Below the pieces are notes generated by a model. It ran no database searches. It saw nothing but the letters and a program-made list of their open reading frames with translations, and was not told where the DNA came from. The position numbers and the translations under genes were made by a program. This document shows positions 8,950-20,970 of a stretch of 43,481 bases of DNA, one piece after another (the stretch's first letter is position 1; each line of letters opens with the position of its first letter). The DNA lies in IMG/VR virus record IMGVR_UViG_3300030388_001030, positions 1 through 43,481 of that record. One strand, given 5' to 3'. This stretch comes from a virus.

Positions 8950-9705
8950 TTACAGGTAGTCAAGCACTTGTGAGTGATCTACGTTATTTATTAACCTGTC
9001 TACTGCCTGTCTTTTTATCTCTGAAACACGCACATAATTGCTAACTCCTGGTATCTTTAAAATAGATGCTATTTGCTTAGCTGAATGTTTGTCGCAGTCT
9101 AATCCATATGAAAGTCTTAACACTTCATACTCTTGGTTCTTGAGATGTTTTTGCATCAAACCTTTTAAATATAAGTTTAATAACTGTATGTTATAAGGCT
9201 CAGAATTATCTTCTATTTGATGATACATACTTTCTTCTTCGTTTTTCATAGGTTTATCTATACTTAAAAATATAGAATTAAAAAACATTTGTACCATAGC
9301 TTTGTCTTTTGTAGACCTCATTTCGTTGAGCTTGTGCTCTGGTATTCTTATATTGCCTCTATGTCTGTCTACTCTTCGACGTATAGCGCCTTTAATTCTT
9401 TTACTAAAAAAAGACTTTAAAGATTTTTCAACATCTTCTTTTTCATTTAGTATTTCCCAATTGAGCTTATCTACTGCTCTTACTAAAGCTTCATTACCAA
9501 TCTGTAGTAGATCTAAGATGCTTAATACACCTGAAGCATGTCCTGCTGTTGAAAATTTTCTTGCCATAGATTCAACTAGTGGCATGAATTTAACAACTAA
9601 CTCATCTCTTGTGTACTCATCCCAAAATAAACCATCTAGGTCATTGATAGATTTCTTTACATCTTCTTTATATCTGATGTAGTTTTGTATATTATATTTC
9701 TTCAT
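8950..9705 (-). CDS. Sigma-70-like RNA polymerase sigma factor
   Basis: A 251-residue transcription factor. Residues about 35-120 read as sigma region 2: 'LVVKFMPLVESMARKF', then 'LDLLQIGNEALVRAVDKLNW' as the core-binding helix, then 'FSKRIKGAIRRRVDRHRG' as the -10 DNA-binding/melting part. Residues about 190-240 form a region-4-like HTH ('EVLRLSYGLDCDKHSAKQIASIL' in outline). Region 3 is poorly conserved, as in group 3/4 and phage sigma factors. It would redirect host RNA polymerase to phage promoters. It overlaps the upstream HTH gene by 14 bases, so the two regulators are co-produced. Confidence 0.82.
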   Translation of the reverse strand: MKKYNIQNYIRYKEDVKKSINDLDGLFWDEYTRDELVVKFMPLVESMARKFSTAGHASGVLSILDLLQIGNEALVRAVDKLNWEILNEKEDVEKSLKSFFSKRIKGAIRRRVDRHRGNIRIPEHKLNEMRSTKDKAMVQMFFNSIFLSIDKPMKNEEESMYHQIEDNSEPYNIQLLNLYLKGLMQKHLKNQEYEVLRLSYGLDCDKHSAKQIASILKIPGVSNYVRVSEIKRQAVDRLINNVDHSQVLDYL

Positions 9706-13435: not shown

Positions 13436-13675
13436 TTAGTTACGTATTAAAATTTTATCGCCGTACATAAAGCTATTAGGATCTAATTGCCAGCTTTTTA
13501 AATCTGTATATGTAAATAAGTCTCTCATCTCGTCTATAGTTAAGTTACACCACATGTATTTAGTCATTAGTACGTATTTTAGTCTTTTAGCTGAGCTATA
13601 TTCTCTAGCACTAGCTTGTAATTGTTTTTTAACGTCAGGCAACAGCTCGTCGTAGACGGTTTTAATTTTACTCAT
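13436..13675 (-). CDS. Small basic helical protein, unknown
   Basis: A 79-residue protein: 'YDELLPDVKKQLQASAREYSSAKRLKYVL' as long helices, then 'LTIDEMRDLFTYTDLKSWQLDP'. The layout is faintly HTH-like but no confident motif. Overlaps the upstream 140-residue gene by 8 bases. Confidence 0.68.
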   Translation of the reverse strand: MSKIKTVYDELLPDVKKQLQASAREYSSAKRLKYVLMTKYMWCNLTIDEMRDLFTYTDLKSWQLDPNSFMYGDKILIRN

Positions 13676-14090
13676 ATTTTTTATAGTTTTTAAGATAATA
13701 ATTTAACATGTATACCATTCTAGTTAATGGATTGTGTATTAAAGCTCTAGCGTTGCTAGTAAATTCTTTAACTACAGGAACATCATGCTCGTTAAGCCAT
13801 ACATATCTTGTTTTTCGTTTGTATTGCGGGTTAATTTGGTAAGCACTGTAACATCCGTTTTGCCTACGAACATAGCCTGACTTGAATACAGCAAGTCTAA
13901 GTCTTTTACTATTATATTTGCACATTTGGTAGTAAGGACTTGAAGGCACAGGGAATTCAAACTCTCTGGTACCGTTTTTAGCTTGTCTTTGTGTTGTTAC
14001 TTCTTTAATGTTATACTCTATAAGTAGCCTACGTGCATAGGAGTCTTCGAGCATTTGGCGTTCTTGTTGCCAGGTATACGTATTTCTCAT
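13668..14090 (-). CDS. Basic protein, unknown
   Basis: A 140-residue, Arg/Lys/Tyr-rich protein. Helical N-terminus ('TWQQERQMLEDSYARRLLIEY'), then strand-rich ('RRQNGCYSAYQINPQYKRKTRYVWL'), then a helix. Nucleic-acid binding would fit the charge. First gene after a copy of the repeated promoter motif (14107-14136), so it probably starts a transcription unit. Confidence 0.7.
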   Translation of the reverse strand: MRNTYTWQQERQMLEDSYARRLLIEYNIKEVTTQRQAKNGTREFEFPVPSSPYYQMCKYNSKRLRLAVFKSGYVRRQNGCYSAYQINPQYKRKTRYVWLNEHDVPVVKEFTSNARALIHNPLTRMVYMLNYYLKNYKKYE

Positions 14091-14106: not shown

Positions 14107-14136
14107 TTTATTATATTATCATACTTCATTTGTATT
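14107..14136 (-). promoter_or_regulatory. Repeated left-arm promoter motif
   Basis: Minus strand AATACAAAT, seven bases (GAAGTAT), then GATAATATAATAAA. It lies between the 3' end of a tRNA-like element and the start of the 140-residue gene at 14090. Contains the hexamer TATAAT; the AATACAAA block would fall near -30. Confidence 0.65.
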
Positions 14137-14143
14137 TATTTTG

Positions 14144-14223
14144 TGGAGGTGGAGAGGATCGAACTCTCGTGCATAGTAGTTCCTGTTGCAGGCTTTCTAC
14201 CATGTCAAAACCATGTCACCCCC
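14144..14223 (-). ncRNA. 80-nt tRNA-like RNA resembling the tRNA-like domain of tmRNA
   Basis: Minus strand: acceptor GGGGGTG pairs with CACCTCC over 7 bp with a G3-U70 wobble, the alanine identity element, plus discriminator A. The T arm GAGAG-TTCGATC-CTCTC is perfect. The 5' segment GGGGGTGACATGGTTTTGAC strongly resembles the start of bacterial tmRNA (GGGGnUGA..UGGnUUcGAC). The centre forms CATG-(7)-CATG and a long imperfect arm GTAG/CTAC with CCTG-CAA-CAGG inside. No 5-bp stem with a 7-base anticodon loop can be drawn. The messenger-like part and pseudoknots of tmRNA are absent, and no CCA is encoded. Confidence 0.6.
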
Positions 14224-14227
14224 ATTA

Positions 14228-14303
14228 CGTAGTTATCTTCGCATATAGCGATCGGACTTCCACCGTGCCGACAGTTAATTACTCTGCCGCTCGTGATACT
14301 ACG
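14228..14303 (-). other. Candidate structured RNA next to the tmRNA-like element
   Basis: Minus strand: an outer stem pairs CGTAGTATC (14303-14295) with GATAACTACG (14237-14228), one bulged A. Inside are AGCG/CGCT and the hairpin GGCAG-(9)-CTGTC. It lies 4 bases upstream of the tmRNA-like RNA. It has no TTCRA T loop, so it is not itself tRNA-like. The flanking 14304-14401 holds no frame or motif I can support. Confidence 0.35.
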
Positions 14304-14401
14304 ACTTATAAAATTAAAGGATCTTCGTCAGCTTAACCACGTATCTCTCGTCTGAGTTCCTATAGCCATACTGAGCCCTTCACATTTATAAGGTTTGTTA
14401 G

Positions 14402-14461
14402 TAACCGCAGGGAGATTCGAACTCCTTCACTAGCTAAGTGATTGGCCTTCCTATCACGGTT
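14402..14461 (-). ncRNA. 60-nt shortened tRNA-like element
   Basis: Minus strand: acceptor AACCGTG pairs with TGCGGTT (7 bp with two G-U). The T arm AGGAG-TTCGAAT-CTCCC has one mismatch at its base. Only 28 bases lie between (41 in a normal class I tRNA). They hold one hairpin, TCACT-TAGCT-AGTGA, and no D arm. A 7-base loop reading TTAGCTA lacks the usual purine after the anticodon. The rest of the gap up to 14576 (14462-14576) holds nothing I can support. Confidence 0.45.
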
Positions 14462-14576
14462 ATCCATCTCTTACCACTATGATTGCTGTGTGTCAAAGGC
14501 ATCATCATAATACCAATAAGAGAATCTGCCGGTTTTCGTATTTATATAGAGCCATATACCGTAAAACTCTTTATGC

Positions 14577-14765
14577 TTACTTTCTACGCCAAGACTTGTG
14601 CACCATAGCACTTAGCTCTTGACTAACAATTTGTATTGTATTACCTGTTTTGTGCTCGATAATAGGTATATATGAGTAAGTCTTTGTCTGACTGTGATCT
14701 ATACACGTTTTATATCCTAATTTTAATCTAACTGGGTGCACTTCTGTGCCGCATTTACAATACAT
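14577..14765 (-). CDS. Small zinc-finger-like protein
   Basis: A 62-residue protein with an N-terminal 'MYCKCGTEVHPVRLKLGYKT' segment then 'CIDHSQ': Cys3, Cys5, Cys21 and His24 are plausible zinc ligands, in the style of short phage zinc-ribbon proteins ('GYKTCxxH'). The second half is beta-like ('TYSYIPIIEHKTGNTIQIVS') with a basic end. Preceded by a promoter motif copy at 14782-14811. Specific role unknown. Confidence 0.65.
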   Translation of the reverse strand: MYCKCGTEVHPVRLKLGYKTCIDHSQTKTYSYIPIIEHKTGNTIQIVSQELSAMVHKSWRRK

Positions 14766-14781: not shown

Positions 14782-14811
14782 TTTATTATATTATCAAATA
14801 GAATTTGTATT
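14782..14811 (-). promoter_or_regulatory. Repeated left-arm promoter motif
   Basis: Minus strand AATACAAAT, then TCTATTT, then GATAATATAATAAA: the same two blocks at the same seven-base spacing as the other copies. It overlaps the 3' end of the 63-residue gene and would drive the zinc-finger-like gene starting at 14765. Confidence 0.65.
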
Positions 14812-19422: not shown

Positions 19423-20970
19423 ATGGCAGACGCTATAGTAAAGAACCTTAACTTCGGAGACGAAGCTAGAGATCAAATATTTAAAGGAATAGAGAAACTC
19501 ACAAAAGCTGTTAGCTCCACACTTGGGGCTAGCGGTAAATGTGTTATACTAGAAGACACGAGTGGTAAGCCACTTATTACAAAAGACGGTGTTACGGTTG
19601 CAGATGCTATATTTCTTAGAGACCCAGTAGAAAACATAGGGGCTACACTTTTGAAAGAAGCAGCACGCAAGACTGTTAAAGAGGCTGGTGACGGTACCAC
19701 CACCGCGACTATCTTGGCCCACGCTATAATAGACGAGGCATACAAGCAAAACGATAAAGACGTTAGGGCTATAAAAGAACAGATACTAAAGGGTGTAGAT
19801 ATAGTTATTAAAGAACTAGAAAACCAATCTGTACCTGTAAAAGACAAGATAGACGATATAGCCATCATATCTACAAACAACGACAAAGAACTAGGTTCTA
19901 TAATAGCAGATGCTTTTAAAAGAGTAGGTGACGCAGGCTTAGTGGTAATGGAGCCTTCAGCCGAAGGTGAAACAAGCGTTGAAGTAGTAGAAGGCGTAGA
20001 GTACAATAAAGGATTATTAAACCCTAATTTTATAACAAACAAAGAAACTGGTACAGCAGAGCTAGACAATCCTTTAGTTCTACTTATAGATTCTAAAGTT
20101 GATTCAATAAGACAGATACAGCCAGTACTAGAACATGTTATAAAAACAAAAGAACCTTTATTAATCATAGGTGAAGTAGAAGCAAATGTTATGTCTGCAC
20201 TACTTATGAATAAAATGAAAGGTAATATAAAGATAAACGTTTTAGATTCTCCGGCATATGGATTAAGACGTAAAGAGATACTAGATGACTTAGCTTTACT
20301 AACAGGAGCTACCGTTGTAAATGAAGACTTAGGTGATGATTTAAGCTCTATAGAAGTAGATTACTTAGGACGATGTATTAAAGTTGTAACAGAAAACGAC
20401 AAGTCAATAATTAGAGTTGAGAAAGATTCAGAAGAAGTTGAGTCTATAATAAACCAGATAAGATCTAAGTTATTAGAAACTAACAAAGAACATGTTAGAG
20501 TAGGTTTAGAGCAAAGACTAGCTAGACTAAGCGCTAAGGTAGCGGTGGTTAAAGTTGGCGCTAATTCAGCTATTGAATTAAAAGAAAAACAAGATAGAGT
20601 AGAAGACGCTATATGCGCTACAAGAGCTGCGATAAAAGAAGGTATAGTACCAGGTGGTGGTATAGCTTTATTAAATGCTTCAAAGTCTTTAGATAAAAAA
20701 GTACCTGGACAAAGCATATTAAGAAAAGCTATCAAAGCACCGTATAAAACAATTTTGCACAACGCTGGTTTAGAGGTTGATGAACCTAAAAACAAAGGCG
20801 AAGGCATAAACGTGGTTACAGGAAATATGGTAAATATGATTAAGGCTGGTATTATAGATCCGCTACTTGTAACAAAGAGCGCCTTGAAAAACGCAGCTTC
20901 AGTAGCGACAACAATACTATCAACTGATTGTGTAATTAATAATATGAGAATTGATGAAAGCAGTAGGTAG
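19423..20970 (+). CDS. groEL: Phage GroEL-type (group I) chaperonin
   Basis: A 515-residue chaperonin subunit (E. coli GroEL is 548) expected to form rings that fold phage proteins, probably the capsid or tail proteins encoded downstream. Equatorial ATP-site motifs are present: 'STLGASGKCV' (32-41, cf. TLGPKGRNV), Asp55 in 'TKDGVTVA', 'AGDGTTTAT' (88-96), and 'VEDAICATRAAIKEGIVPGGG' in outline, containing the hydrolytic Asp. The apical-domain order ('GVEYNKGLLNPNF', 'PLLIIGEVE') is kept. The C-terminus lacks the GGM repeat tail. It overlaps the GroES gene by 17 bases. Phage chaperonins are uncommon, so this is a useful lineage marker. Confidence 0.96.
   Translation: MADAIVKNLNFGDEARDQIFKGIEKLTKAVSSTLGASGKCVILEDTSGKPLITKDGVTVADAIFLRDPVENIGATLLKEAARKTVKEAGDGTTTATILAHAIIDEAYKQNDKDVRAIKEQILKGVDIVIKELENQSVPVKDKIDDIAIISTNNDKELGSIIADAFKRVGDAGLVVMEPSAEGETSVEVVEGVEYNKGLLNPNFITNKETGTAELDNPLVLLIDSKVDSIRQIQPVLEHVIKTKEPLLIIGEVEANVMSALLMNKMKGNIKINVLDSPAYGLRRKEILDDLALLTGATVVNEDLGDDLSSIEVDYLGRCIKVVTENDKSIIRVEKDSEEVESIINQIRSKLLETNKEHVRVGLEQRLARLSAKVAVVKVGANSAIELKEKQDRVEDAICATRAAIKEGIVPGGGIALLNASKSLDKKVPGQSILRKAIKAPYKTILHNAGLEVDEPKNKGEGINVVTGNMVNMIKAGIIDPLLVTKSALKNAASVATTILSTDCVINNMRIDESSR

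Follow-up and report, generated by a model that had tools for sequence, protein, structure and literature searches.

Bacterial tmRNA (RF00023) is an RNA of about 360 nt in which a tRNA-like domain (TLD) is combined with an mRNA-like domain, a tag, a resume codon and pseudoknots. Within the TLD, the G3·U70 pair and A73 are needed for AlaRS, the acceptor and T arm are needed for EF-Tu, and the D-loop segment is a region of contact with SmpB. The anticodon arm is missing from tmRNA, and SmpB takes its place (PMC8012679).

Full-length ssrA genes, some of them beside tRNAs, are found in phages such as Chryseobacterium phage MA9V-3, Stenotrophomonas phage Marzo and Mycobacterium phage Kumao, and these carry the message. 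The annotated SsrA of MA9V-3 (L002, 2939-3297) looks like a two-piece tmRNA of circularly permuted order, in which the 5′ half of the TLD follows the 3′ half. A phage tmRNA without a message was reportedly first described by Mao et al. in 2009, from mycobacteriophage DS6A. Two later sources list a "TLD only" tmRNA for DS6A. In E. coli, an RNA of this type is a strong inhibitor of tmRNA (PMC4131195; PMC11915505), whether or not it can be charged, "perhaps acting by titrating SmpB" (PMC4131195). Loss of the message with retention of the TLD is also seen in organelles, namely in jakobid, oomycete and other mitochondria, where many of the genes are permuted and in two pieces, and in Mallomonadaceae plastids, with two message-less genes of ~65 bp (PMC11915505). 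A 2021 survey of phage tmRNAs made its one- or two-piece call with ARAGORN (PMC9004378), a program that does not report the mini form described below as tmRNA.

The DNA analysed here, referred to as the window, is a stretch of 43,481 nt from a virus (IMG/VR record IMGVR_UViG_3300030388_001030). It encodes an RNA (minus strand, 14223→14144: GGGGGTGACATGGTTTTGACATGGTAGAAAGCCTGCAACAGGAACTACTATGCACGAGAGTTCGATCCTCTCCACCTCCA) that is almost certainly a phage tmRNA minus the mRNA-like domain, keeping the TLD and a shortened, capped P2, and that measures about 80 nt against the 360 of its bacterial counterpart (Table 1). RF00023 matches positions 14141–14223 from end to end (model 1-374; 59 bits against a gathering cut-off of 47; E = 1e-20 over the window), which bears out the proposal of a first-pass annotation that this is a tmRNA reduced to its tRNA-like domain. 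The interior of the model is deleted in the alignment, so that the mRNA-like domain, with its resume codon, tag frame and stop, and all pseudoknots (PK1-PK4) are absent. The two RNAs share the 7-bp acceptor with G3-U70, A73, the T arm, the 5′ GGNUUYGAC, P2 and the GGAC linker. An overlooked ordinary tRNA is ruled out: the covariance-model match is to tmRNA, RF00005 and the other tRNA families give no match to the RNA at E ≤ 1, and ARAGORN calls neither a tRNA nor a tmRNA in the window, thus missing the RNA altogether. The mitochondrial tmRNA family RF02544 likewise gives no match in a scan of all Rfam that lists only the best family where members of a clan overlap.

Table 1. Coordinates of the message-less tmRNA, its structural elements and the flanking repeated motif in the window.
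Feature	Position	Strand	Evidence or pairing
Message-less (TLD-only) tmRNA, 80 nt	14144..14223	minus	RF00023 59 bits; fold z -3.3; family model R1 82.5 bits
Acceptor 5′ strand GGGGGTG, G3 at 14221	14217..14223	minus	7/7 pairs with 14145-14151
Acceptor 3′ strand CACCTCC, U70 at 14147	14145..14151	minus	Pairs with 14217-14223
D-loop-equivalent GGTTTTGAC of tmRNA	14204..14212	minus	Aligned to RF00023 consensus GGaUUCGAC
P2 hairpin, 8-bp CATGGTAG/CTACTATG, internal loop AAAG/AA, CCTG-CAA-CAGG cap	14172..14204	minus	Fold, family covariation
T arm GAGAG-TTCGATC-CTCTC, 5 bp	14152..14168	minus	Fold, family covariation
GATAATATAATAAA, likely promoter motif	14782..14795	minus	Upstream of ORF 14577-14765, thus of the RNA
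GATAATATAATAAA, second copy	14107..14120	minus	Just 3′ of the RNA, before ORF 13668-14090
Exact GATAATATAATAAA copies	14107, 14782, 16434, 17329, 17884, 18134	minus	

The minimum free energy fold consists of the acceptor, the P2 hairpin and the T arm (-29.7 kcal/mol; z = -3.3, with 1/200 shuffles as low) and has no anticodon arm. The first-pass annotation had likewise found none, and its descriptions of an acceptor with G3-U70 and A73, of a perfect T arm and of a 5′ segment resembling the conserved tmRNA 5′ end all agree with the fold and the RF00023 alignment, the acceptor pairing at 7/7 positions on the minus strand with the G3-U70 wobble included. What it called a long imperfect hairpin ending in CAA is indeed present, and is now recognized as the P2 stem of tmRNA in shortened and capped form (8 bp, an internal loop, 4 bp and the CAA loop), standing in place of the entire mRNA-like domain. 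Downstream of A73 (14144) the DNA reads CAA; of the CCA end only C74 is therefore encoded, and the host would have to finish it.

Homologues were collected with sequence patterns. The first fixed the 5′ end and the T loop, allowed between them only a gap in which no message would fit, and did not include the 3′ acceptor strand, U70 or A73. It returned 57 IMG/VR contigs, all of which read as the mini structure except two (L027 and L052), which were excluded. With duplicates out and the window in, 39 distinct sequences were obtained, each with a fully paired acceptor (7/7) and T stem (5/5) and with U70 and A73. Applied to 257 Gb of prokaryote genomes, the same pattern gave four matches, three of them chance or partial (L141, L142, L144) and one genuine by model score, located on a 20.8-kb MAG contig, so that the RNA is essentially a phage feature. 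In the first of the later patterns, most of the D-loop was unconstrained and position 70 could be either C or U. It had at least 120 matches, and at least 103 distinct sequences of the collection fit it, all with U70, a 7/7 acceptor and a 5/5 T stem. The second later pattern left the entire 5′ acceptor strand free and fixed U70 through A73, C66 and A67, and its evidence consequently covers the 5′ strand only. The acceptor pairs at 7/7 in 64 of its 69 distinct matches, with G3 in 64/64; one sequence that ARAGORN calls a tRNA was dropped to leave 63, and L156, L224 and L331, which ARAGORN also reads as tRNAs, were omitted from the family.

The family amounts to at least 164 distinct sequences, which are 62–92 nt long (75–83 nt in 136 cases) and have a GC content of 27–67%. 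They come from about 246 loci on viral contigs, which form at least 79 groups by shared flanking DNA. These counts are lower bounds because the patterns miss forms with other T loops or acceptors, and "viral" is the IMG/VR assignment, which the cultured phages support. RF00023 scores above its cut-off in 43/50 homologue records, and the family model R1, whose E-values are rough, gives the window RNA 82.5 bits. Related terminases are absent from 30/43 records (some too short to contain one), which indicates that the RNA is spread over unrelated phages. Judged by these comparisons, the window RNA belongs to a large phage-associated family, and the TLD-only tmRNA is widespread in phages, not a one-off. 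The first-pass annotation had stated that no phage RNA of this kind was described, which DS6A contradicts: its RNA too is phage-encoded, has little beyond the TLD and lacks a tag frame. DS6A is a single sequence in the cited sources, likened to the window RNA by description only; unlike it, the present family occurs in phages unrelated by terminase and has a conserved capped P2. No paper on a broad family of TLD-only phage tmRNAs was found in the open-access literature, a search that left subscription literature mostly outside, so that absence is not proof.

The alanine signal is kept throughout the pattern-collected set. U70 occurs in 103/103 sequences, among the matches listed, where C or U was allowed, and G3 in 63/63 where any base was allowed at position 3 (second later pattern); the G3·U70 wobble has thus been kept though a Watson-Crick pair was available. 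G3-U70 and A73 are present in 164/164 pattern-collected sequences, A73 having been free only in the first pattern (39/39) and fixed in the later ones. In the 63-sequence set, pairs 1-72, 2-71, 3-70, 6-67 and 7-66 are invariant, pair 4-69 is C-G, U-A, A-U or G·U, and pair 5-68 has six types. An unfitted MAFFT alignment of 38 sequences has 96.8% of cells paired, with 234 double changes against 77 in shuffles and a covariation score of 0.647 against at most 0.112 when slid. For P2, an alignment-free count over 103 sequences shows that most of the first eight positions are filled by five or six kinds of pair. Pairing there is 79–99% and, apart from one position at slide +1, drops to about 20–55% on sliding; the P2 core is more stable than shuffles (mean z = -2.6), and the linker to the T arm is most often GGAC (81/164), matching the tmRNA model consensus. 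Across the family, compensatory change in the acceptor, P2 and T stems is massive, and the conservation and covariation on which the first-pass annotation had staked its reading are both strong (164 distinct homologues). A mini-tag embedded in P2 was considered, as the AAAGCC of many copies resembles an Ala resume codon; it was rejected because many copies lack GCC and there are no consistent frames with a stop, GCN-started frames of at least four codons with a stop occurring in only 41/164 homologues.

With regard to genomic context, a same-strand tRNA lies 0–9 nt from the mini-tmRNA in 14 distinct contigs, and of 41 tRNAs within 300 nt, 37 share its strand, these counts being made after removal of three self-overlaps and one duplicate. 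Seven cultured Streptomyces phages (BRock, Shaeky, LuckySocke, GiJojo, pSt2308, Riptide and Alone3) carry a mini-tmRNA among their tRNA genes, none of them with a tmRNA annotation. The GiJojo copy has a hypothetical protein called across it, and those of Shaeky, BRock and LuckySocke lie within tRNA arrays. These adjoining same-strand tRNAs and array locations suggest that mini-tmRNAs may be matured like tRNAs. The window itself contains no tRNA called by ARAGORN.

Portal, structural, primase/helicase and ligase genes identify the window as a tailed phage. Its terminase large subunit is 64% identical to that of the uncultured podovirus MW202828 (Manatee Spring) and about 45% identical to those of Flavobacterium elemo phages, with further matches to Cellulophaga, Tenacibaculum and Maribacter phages; because of these matches the host is probably a flavobacterium. 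The phage also encodes a GroEL homologue (19423-20970), which shares about 40% identity with the GroELs of bacteria and of other phages. The RNA lies between two ORFs on its own strand, 14577–14765 and 13668–14090, neither of which matched a known family. The motif GATAATATAATAAA occurs in 18 copies at ≤2 mismatches against 2.4 expected, of which 6 are exact, these six all on the minus strand, and is likely a phage promoter; a sigma-70-like factor is encoded at 8950-9705. The DNA between the RNA and ORF 14577–14765 holds other conserved elements on the minus strand. Directly 5′ of the mini-tmRNA is a non-coding block (14226-14303), also found in L022, L033, L056, L361 and L362, with a closing stem CGTAGT/ACTACG that shows compensatory change, a hairpin GGCAG(AGTAATTAA)CTGTC and GGTGGAAGTCC; it has no Rfam match, the fold of the window copy is not significant, and it is possibly another small phage RNA. 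At 14400-14465 is a tRNA-like 3′ half (T arm GGAG-TTCGAAT-CTCC; acceptor AACCGTG/TGCGGTT), called a tRNA by neither ARAGORN nor Rfam, with counterparts in L022, L033, L042, L187 and L222 and the acceptor AACTAG/CTAGTT in relatives. A 41-nt block at 14530-14570, AGAGTTTTACGGTATATGGCTCTATATAAATACGAAAACCG, is 95-100% identical in L022, L042, L056 and L222, while its flanks diverge.

The standard mini form is present in about ten related podoviruses, whose terminases, if complete, are 74–81% identical. Two terminase relatives have longer RNAs, a 131-nt variant that keeps G3·U70 (L145, G029:14160-14290) and a degenerate 105-nt variant with A3-U70 (L146, G025:12282-12386) that may be uncharged; we read both as intermediate or decaying forms. 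Several other terminase relatives, including the complete MW202828, show no mini-tmRNA.

Searches with working controls found no SmpB in 43 phage records and no RF-1-domain (ArfB-type) protein in 50, which excludes a phage SmpB or peptidyl-hydrolase as partner in the records tested; the RNA must therefore use host partners. In Tunturiibacter phage Tunturi_4 (L354), an RF-1-domain (ArfB-like) gene at 1121-1468 adjoins a tmRNA-like 3′ end at about 1500, possibly a phage ribosome-rescue cassette. This pairing had prompted the idea of a peptidyl-hydrolase partner, but the mini model gives the Tunturi_4 RNA only 20 bits, so it is not a mini form. One 123.6-kb phage contig (G070) has both a mini-tmRNA (46486-46567; L359) and a full-length tmRNA (77588-77979; L360).

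All the records are genome sequence, and from them we infer that the window RNA would be transcribed, charged, bound by SmpB, admitted to ribosomes and biologically effective. On balance, it would be an alanyl-charged, message-less competitor of host tmRNA. It would be trimmed like a tRNA and receive CCA from the host, whose AlaRS would use G3-U70 to load it with alanine and whose SmpB and EF-Tu-GTP would bind it. This complex would then enter ribosomes stalled at mRNA 3′ ends and accept the nascent chain, or merely occupy SmpB and the A site, offering the stalled ribosome no resume codon, tag or stop. In so doing it would compete with host tmRNA and suppress degradation-tagging during infection, the release of peptidyl-mini-tmRNA being left to host factors, e.g. 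ArfA, ArfB or peptidyl-tRNA hydrolase. As the features for tagging are missing and those for AlaRS, EF-Tu and SmpB are kept, competition with host tmRNA is the simplest outcome. Counted against it are the two relatives with longer forms, one of them A3-U70, and the several without the RNA; the coexistence of full and mini forms in G070 would also be surprising if blocking trans-translation were all that the mini form does. We tentatively go further and suggest an "empty trans-translation", in which widespread alanine-dependent message-less tmRNAs take the nascent chain untagged off stalled host ribosomes and so rewire rescue, not merely soak up SmpB.

The functions first suggested for the window RNA, a decoy or the addition of a single alanine, are both putative, and the universal G3-U70 favours a role that depends on charging. 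In a rescue that benefits the phage, Ala-mini-tmRNA with SmpB would free ribosomes stalled on the many mRNAs cleaved during infection. The nascent chain would gain a single Ala but no tag, truncated phage proteins would escape destruction, and the aim would be ribosome recycling, not tmRNA inhibition. The invariant G3-U70, which implies that charging matters, and the joint presence of both forms in G070 fit this account, as does a tag-frame-less mitochondrial tmRNA conserved with a mitochondrion-targeted SmpB, which its authors suggest continues to help with incomplete mRNAs (PMC11915505). We nevertheless think it rather unlikely, since no phage peptidyl-hydrolase partner accompanies the RNA and the effect reported for DS6A-like RNA is inhibition (PMC4131195, PMC11915505). 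A pure sponge for SmpB (or AlaRS), in which uncharged mini-tmRNA withholds SmpB from host tmRNA with nothing happening on the ribosome, agrees with the inhibition by chargeable and unchargeable TLD-only RNA alike and with the titration proposed for it (PMC4131195), yet is improbable: G3-U70 is not needed for it but is kept wherever C70 or A3 was equally allowed, and A73 is universal in the 164-sequence set (if free only in the first pattern, 39/39). Titration of SmpB alone should permit drift to C70 or A3, neither of which occurs in the pattern-collected set, and a charged RNA on the ribosome is favoured for this reason over a passive sponge. Phage tRNAs can replace cleaved host tRNAs, and the place of mini-tmRNAs in phage tRNA arrays would suit a spare TLD that replaces host tmRNA damaged by host or defence nucleases during infection; such a backup is very improbable, as trans-translation cannot be replaced without a tag message. 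A decayed ssrA fragment or attachment-site remnant, suggested by the use of ssrA as an attachment site by integrases (cited in PMC11590407), is refuted by the presence and covariation of both TLD halves and the capped P2 in 164 distinct sequences; the lone genuine prokaryote copy found with the first pattern also speaks against it. The preferred reading thus has a charged RNA on the ribosome that blocks tagging and perhaps permits tag-less release too.

Previously, a single mycobacteriophage was the known source of TLD-only phage tmRNA, which was regarded as a curiosity. The 164 distinct covarying versions in many unrelated phages make it a common phage RNA family, one not reported as tmRNA by ARAGORN. 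The invariance of G3·U70 makes the old ambiguity between a sponge and a charged player on the ribosome decidable by one mutation in cultured phages that have laboratory hosts, and the mini-tmRNA would be a natural minimal substrate with which to define the part played in ribosome entry by the message and pseudoknots of tmRNA.
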